36,937 nt of DNA from a virus. Shown in pieces: positions 3,620 through 34,372 of this stretch. The notes below the pieces were generated by a model. It did not search any database. It saw only the letters and a list, made by a program, of their open reading frames with translations, and was not told the origin of the DNA. The position numbers and the translations under genes are program-made. The stretch's first letter is position 1; each line of letters opens with the position of its first letter. Location: the IMG/VR virus record IMGVR_UViG_3300036766_000946, positions 1-36,937 of that record. The stretch is one strand, 5' to 3'.

Positions 3620-5674
3620 ATGAGACAATCTGTCTGGGATTCGTTTGACGATAATTATAGTGGAAACTCTAATGAGAATACGTTTCCTCTTATTGACTAT
3701 GAGGATGATAAGACATGCCTGGATTGGCTTATTAAAGATATTGAGGGAAAGTTTAGATCACGTTCATCTAGGTTAGAGATCCTTAGGAAATACGATGCTA
3801 TGTTTAAGGGGACTACTTATGTAAATGATCATAAGGATAGTCGCGAAAGAGAAGATAATGGAGTTGATGTTCGAAGGCCTAGTTCTATTTATAACTATTT
3901 TAATGAAATGGTTGAGGCAAAGGTATCTCAGAGGACACGTTTCAAGCCTTCTATAGCTGTTATTCCTCAAAATACTGATCAAAACGATGAGAATAGAGCG
4001 GAATCAGCTAAATCAGCTCTTACGGCCATGGCGCAATCTAAGGATTTTGAGACATTATTATCCGATGCGGATAAAGTAAATTTTTTATCTGGTCAATCCT
4101 ATACTCATATTCATTGGAATAAGTTTTTAGGGAAACCTAGTAAACAGTTCGAACAATATAAGGCACAAGGGGCAGCTCCTACCTATGAAGATGGAACTCC
4201 TGTTCCATATATGATGGAAGGTGATATCGATTTTCAAGTCTTTGGGCCTGATCGATGTTATGAGGAGCTTGGAAGAAAAAGATGGTGTGATGTCAAGAAT
4301 ATTTCAAAGATTGAATGGATTCATATTGATGAACTGAAAGCAGATTATCCGGATGCTGATGTTAGCGCTACTGATTCAATTTATCATTCTTATTTTTCTG
4401 TTGAGGAAAGAGAGACATGGACTAACCATTCAATGGTTGTGACTTTTTATTATAGGCCTGATCGGTTCATTCCTGAGGGTAGGATGGTGAAGTATACGCC
4501 AGGGGTTATTTTGGAGAATGTTGTTTTTCCATATAAGCATGGGATGCTTCCTTTTATCTTTGATACAGATATTGATTGCCAGGGGGAAATAACTGGGAGG
4601 CCATTTGTATCGAACATTGATAAACTTCAAAGATTTCATGACATGATTTCATCTAGTGCAGCGAGAGGTTTTGCCATTGGAAACTCTCCTAAATGGGTTT
4701 ACGCTAAGGGATCTATTGATCCGAATAAGCTTACAAATGATAGATCTTCATTAGAATTCAAAGGGCCTATAAGGCCTACTTTAGAGACGTTTAATGGCGT
4801 CCCACAGGCGACTCTGCCATTACTTGAATGGATAGAGAAGCAAATTCAAAAAGCTGCTACTGTTTATGGGATATCAAGAGGACAACCTCCAGTGGCAGTT
4901 AAGGCGGCAGTAGCGCTCCAATTCTTAGATGAGCAGGAAATGCAAAGAGAATCACGTGGAATGGCGAAACGTCAAAGAAGAGTAGTAGAAATCAATAAAA
5001 TGACTCTTTCTCTTATGCAGCAGTATTATACAAAAGAAGATGGAAGAATTTTAAAGATATTAGGTGAGGACAATCAATATTTATTGCTAGATTTTGCGAC
5101 AATTGACTTGAGTGGAGAATTTGATATTAGGATTGAGAATAGCTCTGCACTTCCAGATTCAAAAACTGGTAAGATAGCGGCGATATTAGATCTAAATACA
5201 GCAACTCAAGCAGATCCAATGTTTGATAAACAGGCCATTGCTCAAATGCTTGATCTTGGAAATGATCGTCGATTTAAACAGCAATCAACGTCAGGTCTAA
5301 AGGCAGCACAATTTAAACTCCAGAGTATTTTAAGTAAGAAACCAACAGTAGAGGCACGATCATTTGATGATTTAATTGTTGAGTATCCATTCTTTGTAAG
5401 TGCTTTACGACAAAGAGAGTATAAGGGAGAAGATCCAGAGATAATGCAAGCATTGACTGATTATATTACGGGTATGGAATTTTTAATGTGGAAAAAAGCA
5501 CAGATGAATATGATGTTTAAGCAAAAAGTAATGACGTTTAATGACTATCCTGTATTTTACCAGGTTCCAATGATGATGCCTGCGCAGATAGCAGCGCCTG
5601 AAGCACAACCAACACAACAAAGGCCTACGCCTCAACAGGCACAACCACAGGTACAACCAGGAGTAAATGAGTGA
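3620..5674 (+). CDS. Portal protein
   Basis: A 684-residue protein in the canonical position after the large terminase. It has the pattern of P22-type podovirus portals: an N-terminal acidic region, a conserved RRPSSIYNYFNEMVEAKVSQR segment near residue 95, a long alpha/beta core, and a Pro/Gln/Ala-rich low-complexity C-terminus (PEAQPTQQRPTPQQ). It forms the dodecameric ring at one capsid vertex through which DNA enters and leaves, and binds the adaptor and terminase. The start has GGGAG upstream. Its stop overlaps the GTG start of the scaffold gene. Confidence 0.85.
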   Translation: MRQSVWDSFDDNYSGNSNENTFPLIDYEDDKTCLDWLIKDIEGKFRSRSSRLEILRKYDAMFKGTTYVNDHKDSREREDNGVDVRRPSSIYNYFNEMVEAKVSQRTRFKPSIAVIPQNTDQNDENRAESAKSALTAMAQSKDFETLLSDADKVNFLSGQSYTHIHWNKFLGKPSKQFEQYKAQGAAPTYEDGTPVPYMMEGDIDFQVFGPDRCYEELGRKRWCDVKNISKIEWIHIDELKADYPDADVSATDSIYHSYFSVEERETWTNHSMVVTFYYRPDRFIPEGRMVKYTPGVILENVVFPYKHGMLPFIFDTDIDCQGEITGRPFVSNIDKLQRFHDMISSSAARGFAIGNSPKWVYAKGSIDPNKLTNDRSSLEFKGPIRPTLETFNGVPQATLPLLEWIEKQIQKAATVYGISRGQPPVAVKAAVALQFLDEQEMQRESRGMAKRQRRVVEINKMTLSLMQQYYTKEDGRILKILGEDNQYLLLDFATIDLSGEFDIRIENSSALPDSKTGKIAAILDLNTATQADPMFDKQAIAQMLDLGNDRRFKQQSTSGLKAAQFKLQSILSKKPTVEARSFDDLIVEYPFFVSALRQREYKGEDPEIMQALTDYITGMEFLMWKKAQMNMMFKQKVMTFNDYPVFYQVPMMMPAQIAAPEAQPTQQRPTPQQAQPQVQPGVNE

Positions 5675-6855
5675 GTAGAATTGATGATGTAATGGAGTCT
5701 GATGATTCATCGGATAAACCAAATGAAGAAATGAATGGTGATAGAATATCATCAATAATGAATGATGATTATACACCTGTGGATACTGCAAAAGAGCCAG
5801 TGGACAAAGGAATAAGCAATGAATCTATAATTCCAAAAGCAGAACTTACTGAAAAGAAGGAAGATAAAAAAGAAGATAAAAAAGAAGATAAAAAAGAAGA
5901 TAAAAAAGAAGATAAGGAAGATGAAAAGGAAGAGGACAAAGAAGATAAAGAAAAAAAAGAAGTAAAAATTGAATCTGGAAAGAAAAAGATCAAGTATAAA
6001 GTTGATGGAATCGATATTGAAGAAGAGGTAAGCGAGCAAGACCTCATCAATAATTATTCAGGACAAAAGGCCATTCAAAAAAGATTTTTAGATATCGATA
6101 AGTCGAAAAAAGAACTTGAGAAAGGCAAAGAAGAATACACAAAAGATTACAATTTTATTAAGCAAGAGATGCAAGACGTTCGAGCATCGTTTTCAGATGT
6201 AATTGAAGATTTTGTTAAAACTGGAAATATTAGATCTAATCCTATGGATGGAGTATTTAATCTTCTTGACAAGATGGGACTAGATGCGAAAGAATTTGAT
6301 AAATTGCTGCTTTCTCATTACATACCTGAGGTTGCGGCATTTTTAGATATGGATGATGCGGGACGAGAAACATTCATCGTTAAGAAAGAGAACGATTGGC
6401 TTAAGAAAGGAAGAGACAAATTAGAGAATGAAAAAAAACAGAACGTCGAACAACGGCGTAAACTAGAAGAAGAAAATTCTCTTAAACGTCAACACGGAGT
6501 TTCTGAAGAAAAGTTCAAAGAACTTAAGGATGAATTAGAAGGAAAATTTAACTTGCAGAACCTTAATACGGAGCAAGTTATTCAGTGGTCAAGAGAAAGG
6601 CCTTTTTATACAAGAGCAGAGGCCATTGCTGAAAAAGTTCCAAAGACTGATATTGTGAAAATAGCAAAAATCTTATTGGAATTTCCTGACACTACTGACG
6701 AGTGGATGTTAGATCAGCTTGGGTACAAAGGCATCTTAAGTAAAAAGGCAACGGAGGAATTAAAAAATAAAATTCCACCAAAACCAGTATCTAAAAGCAA
6801 AAAGTATGAAGTGGACGACGATGATGAATTATTTAACAGTTTTAGAAGGAGATAA
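5671..6855 (+). CDS. Scaffolding protein
   Basis: A 394-residue, highly charged, helical protein between portal and major capsid genes, the usual place of a scaffold that guides prohead assembly and then leaves. Residues about 60-100 are a Lys/Glu/Asp tract with at least four KKED repeats, coded by a 12-bp tandem repeat at about 5865-5910. Coiled-coil stretches follow at about 135-165 and 245-290. The start is GTG at 5671, overlapping the portal stop (GTGA) with AGGAG upstream. The C-terminus ends with basic residues (FNSFRRR), as capsid-binding scaffold tails often do. Confidence 0.75.
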   Translation: MSRIDDVMESDDSSDKPNEEMNGDRISSIMNDDYTPVDTAKEPVDKGISNESIIPKAELTEKKEDKKEDKKEDKKEDKKEDKEDEKEEDKEDKEKKEVKIESGKKKIKYKVDGIDIEEEVSEQDLINNYSGQKAIQKRFLDIDKSKKELEKGKEEYTKDYNFIKQEMQDVRASFSDVIEDFVKTGNIRSNPMDGVFNLLDKMGLDAKEFDKLLLSHYIPEVAAFLDMDDAGRETFIVKKENDWLKKGRDKLENEKKQNVEQRRKLEEENSLKRQHGVSEEKFKELKDELEGKFNLQNLNTEQVIQWSRERPFYTRAEAIAEKVPKTDIVKIAKILLEFPDTTDEWMLDQLGYKGILSKKATEELKNKIPPKPVSKSKKYEVDDDDELFNSFRRR

Positions 6856-11849: not shown

Positions 11850-14516
11850 GTGAAAATGATTAATTTTATTTTTCTTTTAATTTTTTCCTTTTATTCAATG
11901 GCGGGACTTCCACCTACGGCCAGTAAAGGAAATGGAGAGACCGATTATGTTACAACGTTCAGAACTAATTATGGTACATGGCCGGTAACTAGAACAGGTT
12001 CATTATTAAATTTAGGTACTCTGCCTATAACGATGGGAGGGACTGGAAATACAAGTGGCACCACTACAATCAATGCAAACTTGACAGGGCCAATTACTAG
12101 TGTAGGAAACGCTACTTCGATCGCTGCACAGGTAGGAACGGGAACAACTTTTGTAATGAGTGCCTCTCCAACTATTACAACGCCAAGTTTTTCAGGAACG
12201 GCCACTGGATCAATCAGCGGTAACGCTGGAACTGCAACAAATATTTCCGGAGGCGCAGGTGGTTCAATTCCATATCAGACCGCTGCGAGTACAACGGCCT
12301 TGCTTGCAAACGGAACTGCGGGACAAACTCTAACAAGCCAAGGGACAACCCTTGCGCCGATCTGGACGACTGGAGTACCTGGAACTGAATGGGCAACAAA
12401 CGGAACGCATATTTATAATAATAATGCTGGAAATGTTGGGATTGGGACTACTGCTCCATTATTTAATTTAGACATATCTGGAACCACCTCAAATCGTGGT
12501 TTGAATATGTTTCCTACGCTAGGAACAGGCGCCAACTCGATAAATATGAACAGTTCCGGAGCAGGTACATATTTAGGACATGAAAGTTCGGCAGGTGGAA
12601 CGATTACAGGCGGTGTCGGAGCTAACGAGTCTTTCGTTGGGTCGTCAGGAGCAAAATCTTTTCATCTTTTAACAAATGCTGCATCGAGAATGACAATTGA
12701 CAGCTCTGGCAATGTTGGGGTTGGGACGACTGCACCTGCAACAAATCTTGAAATAAACAGTGCCAATGACACCAGGGCAAGACTATTTTCTACCGGAGGC
12801 GCTTACAGTTCAACCCTTGAATTAACAGCTTTAACCGCAGGGACGTATGGCTCAACTTTACAATATAGCTCAAATTCTGAGGATTTACAGTTTAACAATT
12901 ATGGAAGAACTTTAAGCCCAGCAGATTCAACATCCGGTGGTTTTAGCTTTATAACTAAAGTCGCTAATACAACTCCTACAAAAGTTATGTTTATTCATGG
13001 TTATACTGGAAATGTTGGAATTGGTACAACTTCTCCATTGGCTAAATTAGATGTTGTGGGGGGAATAATAGCTAATAACACAACTGTCGGCCCCGCAGTG
13101 ATTGCTCGAACATCGGGAAATGGGCATTTAGGGGTATCTGTTAACAATACGACTTTCGGGAGTACAGAAACAACGGCATTTGGTTTGTTTCAAGATACTA
13201 GTGGTGTAGCTGCACTTTATAATAACAACATTAGTTCAATTGCAATAGGCACTACTGGAAAGGTTGGTATTGGGACTACTGCTCCAGATGACAGTTTATC
13301 CATTTCTAGCTCTCTTGCTAATACTGCGGATTGGTACAATAGTGGAAATCAACAGCTACATATTACCAATACGAATGGAGCCGGATACACAGCAATTAGA
13401 ACAGATGGTAATCCTGTTACAACCTGGGTGTATGGAGTAAATGGCGCATCGGATGGTTTAAGAATTAATCCTAGGAATAACACTAGTGGGGCAGCTTCGT
13501 TTTACATGGATCAGAACGGACATGTTGGTATTGGGACTACTGCTCCATTATTTAATTTAGACATATCTGGAACCACCTCAAATCGTGGTTTGAATATGTT
13601 TCCTACGCTAGGAACAGGCGCCAACTCGATAAATATGAACAGTTCCGGAGCAGGTACATATTTAGGACATGAAAGTTCGGCAGGTGGAACGATTACAGGC
13701 GGTGTCGGAGCTAACGAGTCTTTCGTTGGGTCGTCAGGAGCAAAATCTTTTCATCTTTTAACAAATGCTGCATCGAGAATGACAATTGACAGCTCTGGCA
13801 ATGTTGGGGTTGGGACGACTGCACCTGCAACAAATCTTGAAATAAACAGTGCCAATGACACCAGGGCAAGACTATTTTCTACCGGAGGCGCTTACAGTTC
13901 AACCCTTGAATTAACAGCTTTAACCGCAGGGACGTATGGCTCAACTTTACAATATAGCTCAAATTCTGAGGATTTACAGTTTAACAATTATGGAAGAACT
14001 TTAAGCCCAGCAGACTCAACATCCGGTGGTTTTAGCTTTATAACTAAAGTCGCTAATACAACTCCTACAAAAGTTATGTTTATTCATGGTTATACTGGAA
14101 ATGTTGGAATTGGTACTGTTTCTCCAGCGCAAGCACTAGATGTTGCCGGATCAATCGTTGAAACAAGATCAGGTGCTACGTGGGGGGCGGTAACAGTTAA
14201 GGGACAAGCTACACCAGTACTTTTTGGCGCTACTGCTTCAAATGGTGCTGGTTCACCATGTTCCACTGGAACCTGTACATTAGATACGGCCATAGGTACT
14301 AACCTAACCTCTATTGTATGGACATCAGCTGGGCAGTACACGATAAATTATACAGGTATGACAATAGTTCCGGTTTGCTTGATGTCACCTATTGCAAATG
14401 GTGGTACCTGCTATCCGAGTATTGGAGCATCGACAACCTCCACCAACTTATTCTGCTTAAGCGATGTAGGTACTCCAACTAATTCTATTCTCTCCGTGCA
14501 ATGCATAGGGTATTAA
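11850..14516 (+). CDS. Tail fibre-like protein with signal peptide and internal duplication
   Basis: An 888-residue fibre-type protein. Residues 1-20 (KMINFIFLLIFSFYSMA, cleavage likely before GLPPT) look like a Sec signal peptide, which is odd for a virion protein. The body carries repeated NVGIGTTxP motifs, a hallmark of phage fibre shafts that trimerise. A block of about 196 residues is present twice almost without change. The C-terminus is a Cys-containing domain (SPCSTGTC, then VPVCLMSP, GTCYPS, LFCLSD, VQCIGY) and not a recognisable S74 chaperone. It may bind the host receptor. Start GTG at 11850 or ATG at 11856. Confidence 0.7.
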   Translation: MKMINFIFLLIFSFYSMAGLPPTASKGNGETDYVTTFRTNYGTWPVTRTGSLLNLGTLPITMGGTGNTSGTTTINANLTGPITSVGNATSIAAQVGTGTTFVMSASPTITTPSFSGTATGSISGNAGTATNISGGAGGSIPYQTAASTTALLANGTAGQTLTSQGTTLAPIWTTGVPGTEWATNGTHIYNNNAGNVGIGTTAPLFNLDISGTTSNRGLNMFPTLGTGANSINMNSSGAGTYLGHESSAGGTITGGVGANESFVGSSGAKSFHLLTNAASRMTIDSSGNVGVGTTAPATNLEINSANDTRARLFSTGGAYSSTLELTALTAGTYGSTLQYSSNSEDLQFNNYGRTLSPADSTSGGFSFITKVANTTPTKVMFIHGYTGNVGIGTTSPLAKLDVVGGIIANNTTVGPAVIARTSGNGHLGVSVNNTTFGSTETTAFGLFQDTSGVAALYNNNISSIAIGTTGKVGIGTTAPDDSLSISSSLANTADWYNSGNQQLHITNTNGAGYTAIRTDGNPVTTWVYGVNGASDGLRINPRNNTSGAASFYMDQNGHVGIGTTAPLFNLDISGTTSNRGLNMFPTLGTGANSINMNSSGAGTYLGHESSAGGTITGGVGANESFVGSSGAKSFHLLTNAASRMTIDSSGNVGVGTTAPATNLEINSANDTRARLFSTGGAYSSTLELTALTAGTYGSTLQYSSNSEDLQFNNYGRTLSPADSTSGGFSFITKVANTTPTKVMFIHGYTGNVGIGTVSPAQALDVAGSIVETRSGATWGAVTVKGQATPVLFGATASNGAGSPCSTGTCTLDTAIGTNLTSIVWTSAGQYTINYTGMTIVPVCLMSPIANGGTCYPSIGASTTSTNLFCLSDVGTPTNSILSVQCIGY
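12441..13027 (+). repeat. 587-bp intragenic duplication, copy 1
   Basis: Bases 12441-13027 equal 13530-14116 except for one synonymous change (T12926, C14015). The offset of 1089 bp is exactly 363 codons, so both copies stay in frame. Near-identity implies a recent duplication or gene conversion, or strong selection for identity. Confidence 0.95.
13530..14116 (+). repeat. 587-bp intragenic duplication, copy 2
   Basis: Second copy of the fibre-gene duplication; the sequence between the copies (13028-13529) is unrelated at base level but carries the same NVGIGTT-type motifs. Confidence 0.95.
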
Positions 14517-31867: not shown

Positions 31868-31924
31868 TTAGTCGTCATCGTCACCGAAACCGTCGCCGCA
31901 AAAATATAAAATTTTTCTTTTCAT
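31868..31924 (-). CDS. 18-residue glycine-stripe microprotein
   Basis: Encodes MKRKILYFCGDGFGDDDD. The hydrophobic head with Cys, then alternating Gly, then an acidic end are the same three parts as in the other glycine-stripe peptides of this cluster. Its ATG overlaps the MazG-like stop (ATGA), which implies translational coupling. It is the shortest member and the only one with a basic head (MKRK). Function unknown. Confidence 0.55.
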   Translation of the reverse strand: MKRKILYFCGDGFGDDDD

Positions 31925-32214
31925 TCCAATCCATCCATTCGTCTCTCAAGCCTAGACAATTTAAAATCAACTCGAGTATCAATTCCATCTTCGTTTATGT
32001 CAAAATCCCTAATGATATTTTCAGTGATTAGGATTATTTGATAGACCATGATAGACACATCGGCAATTTCATCGACAATTCTTTGCTTGTTCTGCTTGTC
32101 GCTTGGAACGTCAATTTCATTTTTTAGCTCATTAATTTCTTCACAGGCCTTGTTAAGTTGATTAATAACTCCATAGTGCTTAATTACTCTTTTACAAATT
32201 TTATCCATATCCAT
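31921..32214 (-). CDS. MazG-like nucleotide pyrophosphohydrolase
   Basis: A 97-residue helical protein with the MazG/all-alpha NTP-PPase signature EEINELKNE (residues 24-33) and RIVDEIADVSIMVYQ (45-59), whose acidic residues bind Mg2+. Such phage enzymes hydrolyse (d)NTPs or ppGpp-like alarmones and are thought to tune host nucleotide pools. The ATG follows GGAT and lies 40 bases after the 25-residue glycine-stripe gene. It ends in overlap with the 18-residue peptide. Confidence 0.75.
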   Translation of the reverse strand: MDMDKICKRVIKHYGVINQLNKACEEINELKNEIDVPSDKQNKQRIVDEIADVSIMVYQIILITENIIRDFDINEDGIDTRVDFKLSRLERRMDGLE

Positions 32215-32254
32215 GTTTGTTTATCCTTATTTTTAAATGTCTTTAATTTATCAA

Positions 32255-32332
32255 CTAATCACCGCTGCCGGCACCGCCACCGCTACCGTCACCGAAACCG
32301 GAACCGCTAAAATCAAATATTATTTCATCCAT
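32255..32332 (-). CDS. 25-residue glycine-stripe microprotein
   Basis: Encodes MDEIIFDFSGSGFGDGSGGG followed by AGSGD. The head MDEIIFDF is identical at protein level to the heads of the 32- and 53-residue peptides, and the coding DNA of the head is shared over nearly 30 bases. Its start overlaps the end of the upstream membrane microprotein by 8 bases, and AGGGT is upstream. Gly sits at every second residue. Confidence 0.6.
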   Translation of the reverse strand: MDEIIFDFSGSGFGDGSGGGAGSGD

Positions 32333-32471
32333 TTTTTACCCTAAAATAAATGGCCAGGGTGCATACGATAATAATTATCGTTTGAAAAAAGAAAAAACTA
32401 ATCAGATTATCATTAATTGTATCCATTTTTTTCTCAATTCTCTTTAAAAGAAAAAGGTAATCTCCACTCAT
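32325..32471 (-). CDS. 48-residue membrane microprotein
   Basis: Encodes a short charged N-terminus (MSGDYLFLLKRIEKKMDTIN) followed by one strong span (LISFFFFQTIIIIVCTLAIY) and a basic end. The topology resembles XhlA-like accessory holins or a membrane anchor. It has GAGGTG before its ATG. It is translationally coupled on both sides, to the zinc-type microprotein upstream and the 25-residue glycine-stripe peptide downstream, so it may act with that peptide at the membrane. Confidence 0.55.
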   Translation of the reverse strand: MSGDYLFLLKRIEKKMDTINDNLISFFFFQTIIIIVCTLAIYFRVKNG

Positions 32472-32473
32472 TA

Positions 32474-32599
32474 TTACACCTCATCATCATCATTTGATAT
32501 TTCCGCGCCACACACGCAAATTTCATGATTGCAATATATGCACCTATCGTTTGGCAATTGATTATCATATTCATCTTGTGCTTGATCTAAACTAATCAT
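32474..32599 (-). CDS. 41-residue zinc-knuckle microprotein
   Basis: Encodes an acidic N-terminus (MISLDQAQDEYDNQL), then RCIYCNHEICVCGAEI, a Cx2C...CxC set typical of small zinc knuckles, then an acidic DDDE tail. The ATG directly follows the stop of the upstream gene (TAAATG) with AAGGGG before it. The small coupled genes on either side make a functional operon likely. Function unknown. Confidence 0.55.
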   Translation of the reverse strand: MISLDQAQDEYDNQLPNDRCIYCNHEICVCGAEISNDDDEV

Positions 32600-32785
32600 T
32601 TATTTCCCCTTGGTAAAAGTTAATTGCATATTACTCAACAAATCTTTATTAAAGGCCAACGACTTTTCAGCGCTAAATAACAGCTCTTTCATCCCCTTAT
32701 TTTCAATCGGATTCTCCGCTATCGTTGTTTTATATCGCTTAATATCAATTTTTAATTCTTCGATTCTGTCAATAATTAATTTCAT
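32600..32785 (-). CDS. Small coiled-coil protein
   Basis: A 61-residue protein. I chose the ATG at 32785, which overlaps the lipoprotein stop (ATGA) with GGAG upstream; a longer frame would run through the lipoprotein gene. The sequence (MKLIIDRIEELKIDIKRYKT, then a Lys/Glu-rich helix ending LLSNMQLTFTKGK) is predicted entirely helical and could form a dimeric coiled coil. No family recognised. Confidence 0.5.
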   Translation of the reverse strand: MKLIIDRIEELKIDIKRYKTTIAENPIENKGMKELLFSAEKSLAFNKDLLSNMQLTFTKGK

Positions 32786-33144
32786 AATTTTACTCCGCAA
32801 AAAGGTAGCAACCCAATTGCCGCAGAGCACTCTTTGTTTGTAGGCAAGGCAGGCCTTTTGGATGTCCTAATTCTCTTCCCCTTGTCCTTATCCCTCTTTT
32901 CATCAGAAACGCCTAATTTTGGCGATAATGAGTTCTTTTCGGCATTTTTAGACGGTATGGGAGATACATTATCTTTAATATCTTTATGGCACAATTGCGT
33001 TATAGGCTTATAATGATAATCTTTAGGGCAAACGATCCTATCGCCTTCGTAAACGTCAGGGTGCCAGGAATTATCTTTGTATGAGCGATATCCATGCCCG
33101 CACGAGGCAATGGCCGTTAGTACTAGTAAGTTAATTAGTTTCAT
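32782..33144 (-). CDS. Predicted lipoprotein of the early cluster
   Basis: A 120-residue protein. I chose the ATG at 33144 because AGGAG precedes it and because it begins a signal with an IASC lipobox (MKLINLLVLTAIASC). A start at 33180 would bury that signal. The mature part is Lys/Asp/Pro-rich with four further Cys (IVCPKDYHYKPITQLCHK; NKECSAAIGLLPFCGVKL). An early-expressed envelope lipoprotein suggests superinfection exclusion or envelope modification. It is coupled to the helical microprotein downstream. A second o-spanin is the alternative. Confidence 0.55.
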   Translation of the reverse strand: MKLINLLVLTAIASCGHGYRSYKDNSWHPDVYEGDRIVCPKDYHYKPITQLCHKDIKDNVSPIPSKNAEKNSLSPKLGVSDEKRDKDKGKRIRTSKRPALPTNKECSAAIGLLPFCGVKL

Positions 33145-33195
33145 TTTGATTCTCCTTGTTTTTTTATCCACCGTCACCATAAAATCTTCCTAGTA

Positions 33196-33216
33196 GAAAA
33201 ATGCAATTATTTGCAT
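33196..33216 (-). promoter_or_regulatory. Hairpin with T-tract, attenuator-like (copy A)
   Basis: On the minus strand ATGCAA and TTGCAT (33216-33201) flank a four-base loop and are followed by T5. This small AT-rich stem lies between the 32-residue glycine-stripe gene and the lipoprotein gene, inside a 54-bp direct repeat shared with 33844-33899. It could act as a weak terminator or mRNA-end protector. Confidence 0.45.
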
Positions 33217-33222
33217 TATTTT

Positions 33223-33321
33223 TTAATCATTGCTGTCATCGGCATAGTCACCGAAACCGTAACCGTCACCGGAATCGCCACCGTAACCGTCACCGCAAAA
33301 ATCAAATATTATTTCATCCAT
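33223..33321 (-). CDS. 32-residue glycine-stripe microprotein
   Basis: Encodes MDEIIFDFCGDGYGGDSGDG then YGFGDYADDSND. The head is shared with the 25- and 53-residue peptides and the tail (DYADDSND) with the 163-residue fusion (DYYDDSNE). AAGGAT lies upstream. The repeat is Gly alternating with Asp, Ser, Tyr and Phe. Confidence 0.6.
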   Translation of the reverse strand: MDEIIFDFCGDGYGGDSGDGYGFGDYADDSND

Positions 33322-33336
33322 TTTTTTATCCTTTTT

Positions 33337-33498
33337 TTAATAACCGCCACCGAAACCGTCACCGCTACCGGAACCGTCACCGAAACCGGAACCGTCACCA
33401 TAACCGGAACCGTCACCATAACCGAAACCGTCACCGCTACCGGAACCGTCACCGAAACCGGAACCGTCACCGCAAAAATCAAATATTATTTCATCCAT
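33337..33498 (-). CDS. 53-residue glycine-stripe microprotein
   Basis: Encodes MDEIIFDFCGDGSGFGDGSG and further Gly-X repeats to residue 53. Start chosen at 33498, with AAAGAGAT upstream and a head identical to the other paralogues; a longer frame from 33549 would run through a hairpin. From residue 10 on, every even position is Gly and the alternating residues are Asp, Ser, Phe or Tyr; it ends FGGGY without the acidic DDSN tail. The codons are almost all GGT for Gly and NNC for the partner, forming a hexanucleotide repeat in DNA. Confidence 0.6.
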   Translation of the reverse strand: MDEIIFDFCGDGSGFGDGSGSGDGFGYGDGSGYGDGSGFGDGSGSGDGFGGGY

Positions 33499-33518
33499 TT
33501 TTATCTCTTTTGTTATAA

Positions 33519-33544
33519 GAGACGGCCGGATGTTGTCTCCGGCC
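33519..33544. promoter_or_regulatory. Mutually exclusive hairpins between DUF6948-like and glycine-stripe genes
   Basis: GGCCGGA (33524-33530) pairs perfectly with TCCGGCC (33538-33544). The overlapping GAGAC (33519-33523) can instead pair with GTCTC (33535-33539). Two exclusive structures in the leader of the 53-residue gene suggest attenuation or RNA processing. The longer stem also holds two GGCC sites. Confidence 0.45.
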
Positions 33545-33551
33545 ATCATTT

Positions 33552-33836
33552 TTACTTTTTCCAGATCACAGCGGTCAATGACTCGAACACTTTATCAGTA
33601 ATAGGTATAATTTCGATAGTTTCCGTCAATAGAATCTCAGGAACTGAAACGGAAATTCTCCCACCTGTCGCGCCTTGCATTGCTTGAGTCGCTAGTTGCG
33701 ACAGAGAGCACGCATTGACCCAGTAATGCACTCTATGCGCTGTTGTAAGCACAGTTTCTTTTCCGTCTTTTGACTTTAGAGTTCCAAAATGCACTCCTGC
33801 CGAATACGTTCGAACCAAAACTTTTTTTCCAATCAT
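33552..33836 (-). CDS. DUF6948-like protein
   Basis: A 94-residue protein. The pattern VLVRTYSAGVHFGTLKSKDG, ETVLTTAHRVHYWVNACSLSQLA and then EILLTETIEIIPIT is one I remember as the DUF6948 family, usually called from phages and prophages and, as I recall, often next to Gly-rich short ORFs. Start chosen at the ATG with AGGAG upstream. Function unknown; the compact beta-rich fold lacks catalytic motifs. It lies between the 163-residue fusion and the 53-residue glycine-stripe peptide. Confidence 0.6.
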   Translation of the reverse strand: MIGKKVLVRTYSAGVHFGTLKSKDGKETVLTTAHRVHYWVNACSLSQLATQAMQGATGGRISVSVPEILLTETIEIIPITDKVFESLTAVIWKK

Positions 33837-33852
33837 AAAAATCTCCTAGTAG

Positions 33853-33874
33853 AAAAAAATGCAATTATTTGCAT
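33853..33874 (-). promoter_or_regulatory. Hairpin with T-tract, attenuator-like (copy B)
   Basis: Second copy of the ATGCAA / TTGCAT stem (minus strand 33874-33859), followed by T7 on the minus strand. It lies between the 163-residue fusion gene and the DUF6948-like gene. Confidence 0.45.
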
Positions 33875-33880
33875 TATTAT

Positions 33881-34372
33881 TTATTCATTGCTGTCATCGT
33901 AATAGTCACCGCTGCCGGCACCGCTACCGAAACCGTCACCGACACCATCACCGAAACCGCTACCGAAACCGCTACCGGCACCGGCACCGCCACCGCCACC
34001 GTAACCGGAACCGAAACCGAAACCGAAACCGAAATCAGAATCAGAACTAGGGCCAAGCCCGCTAAAAGTATCTAAATTTATTTCATTCATTCTTATATTC
34101 GGACATTTATAAATCTCGATCACTTTGTCGTTGTATTGTCCTTTGAGCACTATAACATAATCGTTAAATGACGATATCTCGCGCGATGTTGCATAAGGAA
34201 TGGCCTCACTGCGAGTAATGGCCCTTGCTGAGGGATCATAAGTATCACTCAAAAATTGAGCGCGTTCTTCTTTAGATCTAAAAGCAAAAACACATTTTGT
34301 GTTAGCAAAACCATGGCCGTACTCTTTTTTACCTAGCATGAAGTAATCGTATTTAGCGTAATAATGTCTCAT
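33881..34372 (-). CDS. 163-residue protein with C-terminal glycine-stripe module
   Basis: Residues 1-94 form an unrecognised alpha/beta domain (MRHYYAKYDYFMLGKKEYGH, FRSKEERAQFLSDTYD, YVIVLKGQYNDKVIEIYKC). From Met95 the sequence MNEINLDTFSG resembles the head of the free peptides (MDEIIFDFSG). It is followed by alternating Gly with Phe, Ser, Asp and Ala and the tail DYYDDSNE. So it is a fusion of a domain with a complete glycine-stripe module, or an internal start at 34090 also makes a free 68-residue peptide. AAGGA precedes the 34372 start. Confidence 0.6.
   Translation of the reverse strand: MRHYYAKYDYFMLGKKEYGHGFANTKCVFAFRSKEERAQFLSDTYDPSARAITRSEAIPYATSREISSFNDYVIVLKGQYNDKVIEIYKCPNIRMNEINLDTFSGLGPSSDSDFGFGFGFGSGYGGGGGAGAGSGFGSGFGDGVGDGFGSGAGSGDYYDDSNE

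Follow-up and report, generated by a model that had tools for sequence, protein, structure and literature searches.

Many bacterial viruses carry a linked pair of genes in which a protein of the DUF6948 family (PF22253), for which an Sm-like fold is predicted, is followed, nearly always directly, by a tiny acidic protein with glycine at every second residue. The stretch of DNA analysed here is a phage sequence of 36,937 nucleotides (nt; IMG/VR record IMGVR_UViG_3300036766_000946, positions 1 to 36,937), referred to below as the window, and its minus strand carries a DUF6948 gene and several short glycine-striped proteins between 31868 and 34372. A preliminary description of the window had taken the latter for a family of microproteins, and a real family they are; we define it in this analysis as Gly-X, by glycine at every second residue, by intervening (X) residues that are aromatic, acidic or small polar, and by proximity to a gene of the DUF6948 superfamily. 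DUF6948, a domain of unknown function in phages of very different hosts, here gains a function that can be tested.

Pairing of DUF6948 and Gly-X genes

The first eight DUF6948 loci, obtained by tblastn in isolated phages and by a scan of viral contigs, were opened blind to Gly-X, and a Gly-X open reading frame (ORF) lay beside the 3' end of DUF6948 in all eight. For a larger set, DUF6948 was the sole criterion of choice. It comprised 80 viral contigs and 43 from bacteria or archaea, and the 118 genes followed by 60 nt or more of sequence were scored; a Gly-X core was looked for within 300 nt downstream, and the other ORFs of at least 90 amino acids (aa) in the same loci, counted mechanically, served as controls. 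In this set, which is biased to the SLSQLA subfamily through the search patterns, a Gly-X ORF directly follows 111 of 118 DUF6948 genes, against 9 of 1650 control ORFs, and the pairing is seen in 86 of 93 clusters at 90% identity and in 21 of 24 at 70%. At least two of the exceptions carry degenerate versions of Gly-X (L249, L159). The co-occurrence with DUF6948 that the preliminary description had proposed to compare with control genes is therefore very strong. The two genes stay together across contigs whose assigned hosts differ widely, the host names being uncertain for those bacterial or archaeal contigs that are binned metagenome fragments.

The reverse test began from 120 viral loci picked by (GGYNNY)10 only, a choice that is less biased but is tied to a pattern of Y-ending codons. 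Among the 78 loci of the S/Y/D/N type so obtained, a DUF6948-superfamily gene was present upstream in 61, the sequence was cut off in 7 and the gene was lacking in 10. Profile searches link a second subfamily (NRAVVVVDRGWIFAGD...), whose arrays are of Tyr, Asn and Asp, to DUF6948. Searches of 14 well-known control genomes did not detect DUF6948. Genes for recombination and replication surround the pair, and DUF6948 is the sole constant partner found, since no family recurs in more than three of 133 neighbour proteins from related loci. The same count does not bear out the earlier proposal of a single early system that would also include the MazG-like, lipoprotein, membrane and zinc-type genes of the window.

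In the common form of the pair the genes overlap by 13 nt, counted from the Gly-X ATG, which falls within DUF6948, to the end of the DUF6948 stop codon. Among 96 pairs with an assigned ATG, 84 have this overlap and 8 have one of 16 nt; the start reads ATGG in 83 of the 84, its A standing directly before the TGG codon of a conserved C-terminal Trp. A Shine-Dalgarno-like sequence precedes 45 of 74 overlapping starts, against 54 of 370 random positions. Judged from these sequences, the overlap is apparently the arrangement of translationally coupled genes.

Two further observations concern the loci themselves. The Gly-X genes of L037 and L097, which are of the Y/N/D type, are preceded not by DUF6948 but by a protein of ~350 aa ending '...KLAIIITDDD...VICVPIGCD', possibly a second type of Gly-X partner. 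In addition, ~20 of the 80 viral contigs (L130-L209) end no more than ~310 nt past the DUF6948 gene, while ~2 end within the same distance before it, which suggests that assembly tends to stop within the Gly-X array and that phages carrying it may be under-assembled in public data. Such breaks, the masking of Gly-X by low-complexity filters and the lack of any family matching the Gly-X proteins tried suggest why the pair has gone unseen.

Composition and codon usage of the Gly-X arrays

At ~2700 X positions, Ser (37%), Tyr (31%) and Asp (23%) together account for 91%, while Ala, Thr and basic residues stand at ~0.3% each (0.4% for basic residues when counted by class), with Lys and Arg nearly absent. 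Grouped by chemistry, 34% of X residues are aromatic, 24% acidic and 39% small polar, and all three classes are found in 86 of 91 arrays. The free Gly-X proteins have a median length of 80 aa, an isoelectric point (pI) of 4.05, a net charge of -8.5 and one basic residue; those tried match no Pfam, PHROG or NCBIfam family. In phage pairs whose DUF6948 proteins are 80-90% identical, the residue-order alignment score of Gly-X is 0.22, against 0.23 for shuffled sequences, and its length differs by 27%. The glycine stripe and the composition are thus conserved while the order of residues is lost, as expected of a disordered chain. X composition depends weakly on DUF6948 divergence (Mantel r 0.17, p 0.019). 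Gly-X proteins are natural simple sequences, with three chemical classes alternating with glycine in free order, from which rules of condensation and of nucleic-acid mimicry might be learned.

From this composition the preliminary description had suggested phase separation, calcium binding or a modified peptide. The arrays may indeed have a role in condensation, because in them glycine is combined with acidic residues, small polar residues and aromatics set at intervals, and basic residues are almost missing. A calcium-binding peptide of the kind found in RTX proteins, or an enzymatically modified one, deserves almost no credence: the arrays resemble RTX repeats in being rich in Gly and Asp, but all Gly-X cores have a period of two residues, with neither the GGxGxDxxx nonapeptide nor its hydrophobic position, and no maturation or modification enzyme was seen as a constant neighbour.

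Tandem Gly-X copies with constant heads and variable cores are present in the window and in L014, L018, L078, L195 and L203. At L078:1693-2971 there are five tandem Gly-X genes, which all begin with the head MGLKAFLKF and end with the tail EPNLTSAGATVVEE but differ in their cores. Such amplification, and the regular spacing of aromatic, acidic and small polar residues along the glycine stripe, would suit a structural role, in which a Gly-X condensate or fibre concentrates phage replication factors and DUF6948 is only its anchor. We consider this quite unlikely, however, given that Gly-X lengths as low as 16-30 aa occur and that a constant third partner is missing.

Gly-X stretches are also found joined to other proteins. 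In contigs of gut Bacteroidales and Clostridia (L230, L232, L233, L235, L237, L239, L240, L244, L246 and L248) the stretch runs in frame into a conserved domain of ~155 aa (A5; FAHGETL...WHxxLTGSCEMGR), whose model is confident, yet which matched nothing in the PDB and no Pfam or other family and so gave no functional clue. At L206:3267-5402 a Gly-X ORF continues in frame into a ParB-like protein (ParB_N, HTH_ParB), which, as read from the sequence, may reflect a lost stop codon or a real fusion.

Within one Gly-X gene the Gly codons are nearly uniform (median 97%), unlike those of other genes of the same phage, and the dominant codon differs between phages (GGC in 75, GGT in 12, GGG in 7). 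In the window arrays GGT supplies 56 of 64 Gly codons, whereas other window genes prefer GGA; Ser in the arrays is mostly TCY. This near-uniformity indicates homogenisation of the repeat unit and leaves room for a role of the nucleic acid. One alternative is that the array acts entirely at that level: (GGY-NNY)n in the mRNA would be a repeated binding site for a DUF6948 ring, providing feedback on the operon, and the peptide would be a by-product. The TRAP ring offers a precedent, in that it binds spaced triplets of the trp leader. The dominance of one Gly codon per gene against the codon usage of the phage, its variation among phages, the TCY serines and the position of the array, nearly always after a predicted Sm-fold gene, are all in keeping with such a site. 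Slippage and recombination also homogenise repeat units, however, and X is limited by chemistry, with Ala (GCY), Thr and basic residues almost absent though several are one base away. In some phages, moreover, exchanges go class by class (F or W for Y, N or T for S, E for D), and both the start-codon overlap and the reading frame are kept. Selection on the protein is favoured by the chemistry of X, by the constant position of the start and by a frame that stays open, and the class-wise exchanges point to it too. We regard a mere by-product peptide as unlikely; roles at the protein and nucleic-acid levels can nevertheless exist together.

Homogenised units and fast changes in length would also be expected of a neutral hexanucleotide microsatellite that is open, and placed after DUF6948, by chance. 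Its retention after 111 of 118 DUF6948 genes speaks against this, and the fixed start geometry and restricted residue set already contradict it, so that neutrality is very improbable.

Predicted fold of DUF6948 and a possible mode of action

The DUF6948 gene of the window (33552-33836, minus strand; 94 aa, pI 9.5) is a clear member of its family, matching profile positions 1-85 of 85 in Pfam with E 2.6e-24 and 85.6 bits against a gathering cut-off of 27. An AlphaFold2 model of DUF6948 built with 36 sequences (mean predicted local distance difference test score 92.9) has five strands in Sm-like order, which form a strongly bent barrel of Sm topology; nearly all of the top 50 Foldseek matches in the PDB are Sm or LSm proteins (best E 1.5e-3, probability 1.00), and VIA-align superposes DUF6948 on LSm with Z 8.1 over 62 aligned residues at a root-mean-square deviation of 1.9 A, scores that are moderate and that concern a predicted structure. 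In a viral library DUF6948 itself was matched, followed at lower scores by cyanophage proteins named Sm-like. Two features of the alignment fit the Sm1 motif: G18, which never varies, and the D or N found near residue 24. A profile search of PDB sequences with DUF6948 returned no Sm protein, and with moderate structural scores and the Asn of Sm1 and the Sm2 signature missing we call DUF6948 Sm-fold and do not place it in either the Sm or the Hfq sequence family. DUF6948 domains are usually basic, with a median pI of 8.9. Pfam assigns the family no function; the Sm-fold assignment and the Gly-X partner are additions of this analysis.

Disordered-tailed proteins of the Sm fold organise RNA in all cells. 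In Hfq, our model for the phage pair, a disordered acidic tail binds to the basic rim, is in competition with non-specific RNA and sets duplexes free (PMC5606850). The constant pairing, the coupled translation, the opposite charges and one natural example (L049, a single metagenomic contig) in which DUF6948 and Gly-X form one chain all suggest that the two work as a single unit, an Sm-fold core and its tail. We propose, by analogy and from a predicted structure, that this two-gene phage module is a nucleic-acid-binding Sm-fold protein whose acidic, aromatic, disordered tail is supplied in trans and works as the C-terminal tail of Hfq does, a proposal to which we give roughly an even chance. 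The DUF6948 barrel, of Sm/LSm type, would probably assemble into a ring, and the ring would probably bind RNA (or single-stranded DNA) in early infection, acting in the early metabolism of these molecules. Gly-X, as a disordered, acidic, aromatic chain of low complexity, would bind the ring in trans and limit or release its nucleic-acid binding, and tyrosine-arginine contacts may promote condensation.

The likeness to Hfq consists in a basic core of Sm fold combined with an acidic disordered chain able to mimic nucleic acid, binding being a prediction in the phage case. The phage chain differs in being normally a separate and apparently translationally coupled protein, covalently attached in L049 only, and in its strict Gly-X pattern, and we found no sequence homology to Hfq. 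SmB, SmD1 and SmD3 similarly combine the Sm fold with a low-complexity, glycine-rich chain, but their RG tails are basic and covalent, whereas Gly-X is acidic or aromatic, almost free of Arg and acts, as we propose, in trans. Another small Sm-like protein, PDB 3by7 (Sm/LSm-like, marine metagenomic), ranks 48th in the Foldseek search (E 6e-3), but shows no sequence match to DUF6948 by profile search; it is described as being of putative cyanophage origin.

Several points weigh against the Hfq-like reading. The homogenisation of Gly codons against genomic usage may be compatible with a role at the nucleic-acid level, and the single chain of DUF6948 and Gly-X is one case in 201 ORFs. A Foldseek E of ~1.5e-3 and VIA Z scores of at most 8.1 can reflect a common barrel, and the Asn of Sm1 and the Sm2 (IRG) signature are absent from the DUF6948 alignment. 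The pI of DUF6948 exceeds 8 in 69% of cases, leaving about a third not clearly basic, and some Gly-X genes have no detectable DUF6948 gene (the L014 record).

The opposite charges can be read in another way, in which DUF6948 is a basic effector, toxic or directed at the host, and the acidic Gly-X protein neutralises it by serving as a decoy, as in toxin-antitoxin or anti-defence systems. Two small overlapping genes of opposite charge, placed in the early region beside replication and recombination genes, and a hypervariable core such as conflict would predict, are what an inhibitor pair would look like. Yet no toxin or defence domain was found, the predicted Sm fold points to nucleic-acid binding and both genes are retained across contigs assigned to very different hosts; an inhibitor pair seems to us improbable.

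The most far-reaching form of the Hfq-like proposal would have a near-obligate, previously undescribed phage system, in which an Sm-fold ring and a hypervariable Gly-(Ser/Tyr/Asp) partner are made in fixed ratio from overlapping genes and the array serves this ring twice over, as its protein tail in trans and, in the RNA, as a repeated target; this combination we think distinctly improbable. In the sources searched we did not find described a widespread phage Sm-fold protein whose tail is a separate hypervariable gene. Among the PMC papers searched none names DUF6948, no paper combining SGYGSG and phage was found, and the pair is not mentioned in those passages of a survey of prokaryotic low-complexity proteins (PMC6821194) that a keyword search returned.

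The Gly-X genes of the window

Since ~250 bp from its start recur at its end, the window most likely represents a complete phage genome that has been circularised. The Gly-X ORFs sit in an early minus-strand cluster, upstream of prim-pol, helicase, ATPase and nuclease genes. No relative of the prim-pol gene was found in viral contigs, and the exact head MDEIIFDF, searched as a DNA pattern, had no match, so no close relative of this phage was found.

The minus strand does carry all five Gly-X segments reported earlier, four of them as free ORFs (18, 25, 32 and 53 aa) and one as the C-terminus of a 163-aa protein. Their arrays are runs of GGT-NNC hexamers beyond shuffle expectation, with three runs of at least eight units in the region and none of at least six in 500 dinucleotide shuffles. 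X positions are looser here than is the norm for the family, Gly, Ala and Val also being present; the 53-, 32- and 25-aa ORFs and the fusion nevertheless have the family's glycine spacing, residue classes and proximity to DUF6948. An AGG- or GAG-type Shine-Dalgarno sequence lies a few bases 5' of each of these four. With its Gly-X gene copied into several genes and fused once, the window phage is an unusual member of the group.

Directly downstream of DUF6948 is the 53-aa microprotein (33337-33498; MDEIIFDFCGDG...GGGY), which has a net charge of -10. It does not overlap DUF6948: its start at 33498 is 53 nt past the DUF6948 stop, and an alternative in-frame ATG at 33549, 2 nt past that stop, would give 70 aa instead of 53. 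The 32-aa microprotein (33223-33321; MDEIIFDFCGDGYGGDSGDGYGFGDYADDSND) has the head MDEIIFDFCG and the acidic tail DYADDSND, and the 25-aa one (32255-32332; MDEIIFDFSGSGFGDGSGGGAGSGD) the head MDEIIFDFSG. In the 163-aa fusion (33881-34372), an N-terminal domain (residues 1-94), for which there was no Pfam, PHROG or NCBIfam match and no tblastn match in phages, precedes a Gly-X segment comprising the last 69 aa (33881-34090, beginning at 34090), with the related head MNEINLDTFSG and the tail DYYDDSNE. The 18-aa ORF (31868-31924; MKRKILYFCGDGFGDDDD), whose ATG overlaps the stop of the MazG-like gene as ATGA, is the weakest member, because it has just three Gly units. The common head claimed for all of these does not extend to the 18-aa ORF, which has a head of its own and shares the FCGDG part alone; the acidic tail is present on the 32-aa ORF and the fusion, as a DDDD version on the 18-aa ORF, and is lacking on the 53-aa ORF.

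Elsewhere in the window, an 888-aa ORF at 11850-14516, probably a tail or fibre gene, contains a long internal duplication (IGTTAPLFNLDISGTTSNRGLNMFPTLG... occurring twice), and at 5671-6855 a low-complexity run of Lys, Glu and Asp (KKEDKKEDKKEDKKED...) lies near the N-terminus of a probable scaffold-type protein.

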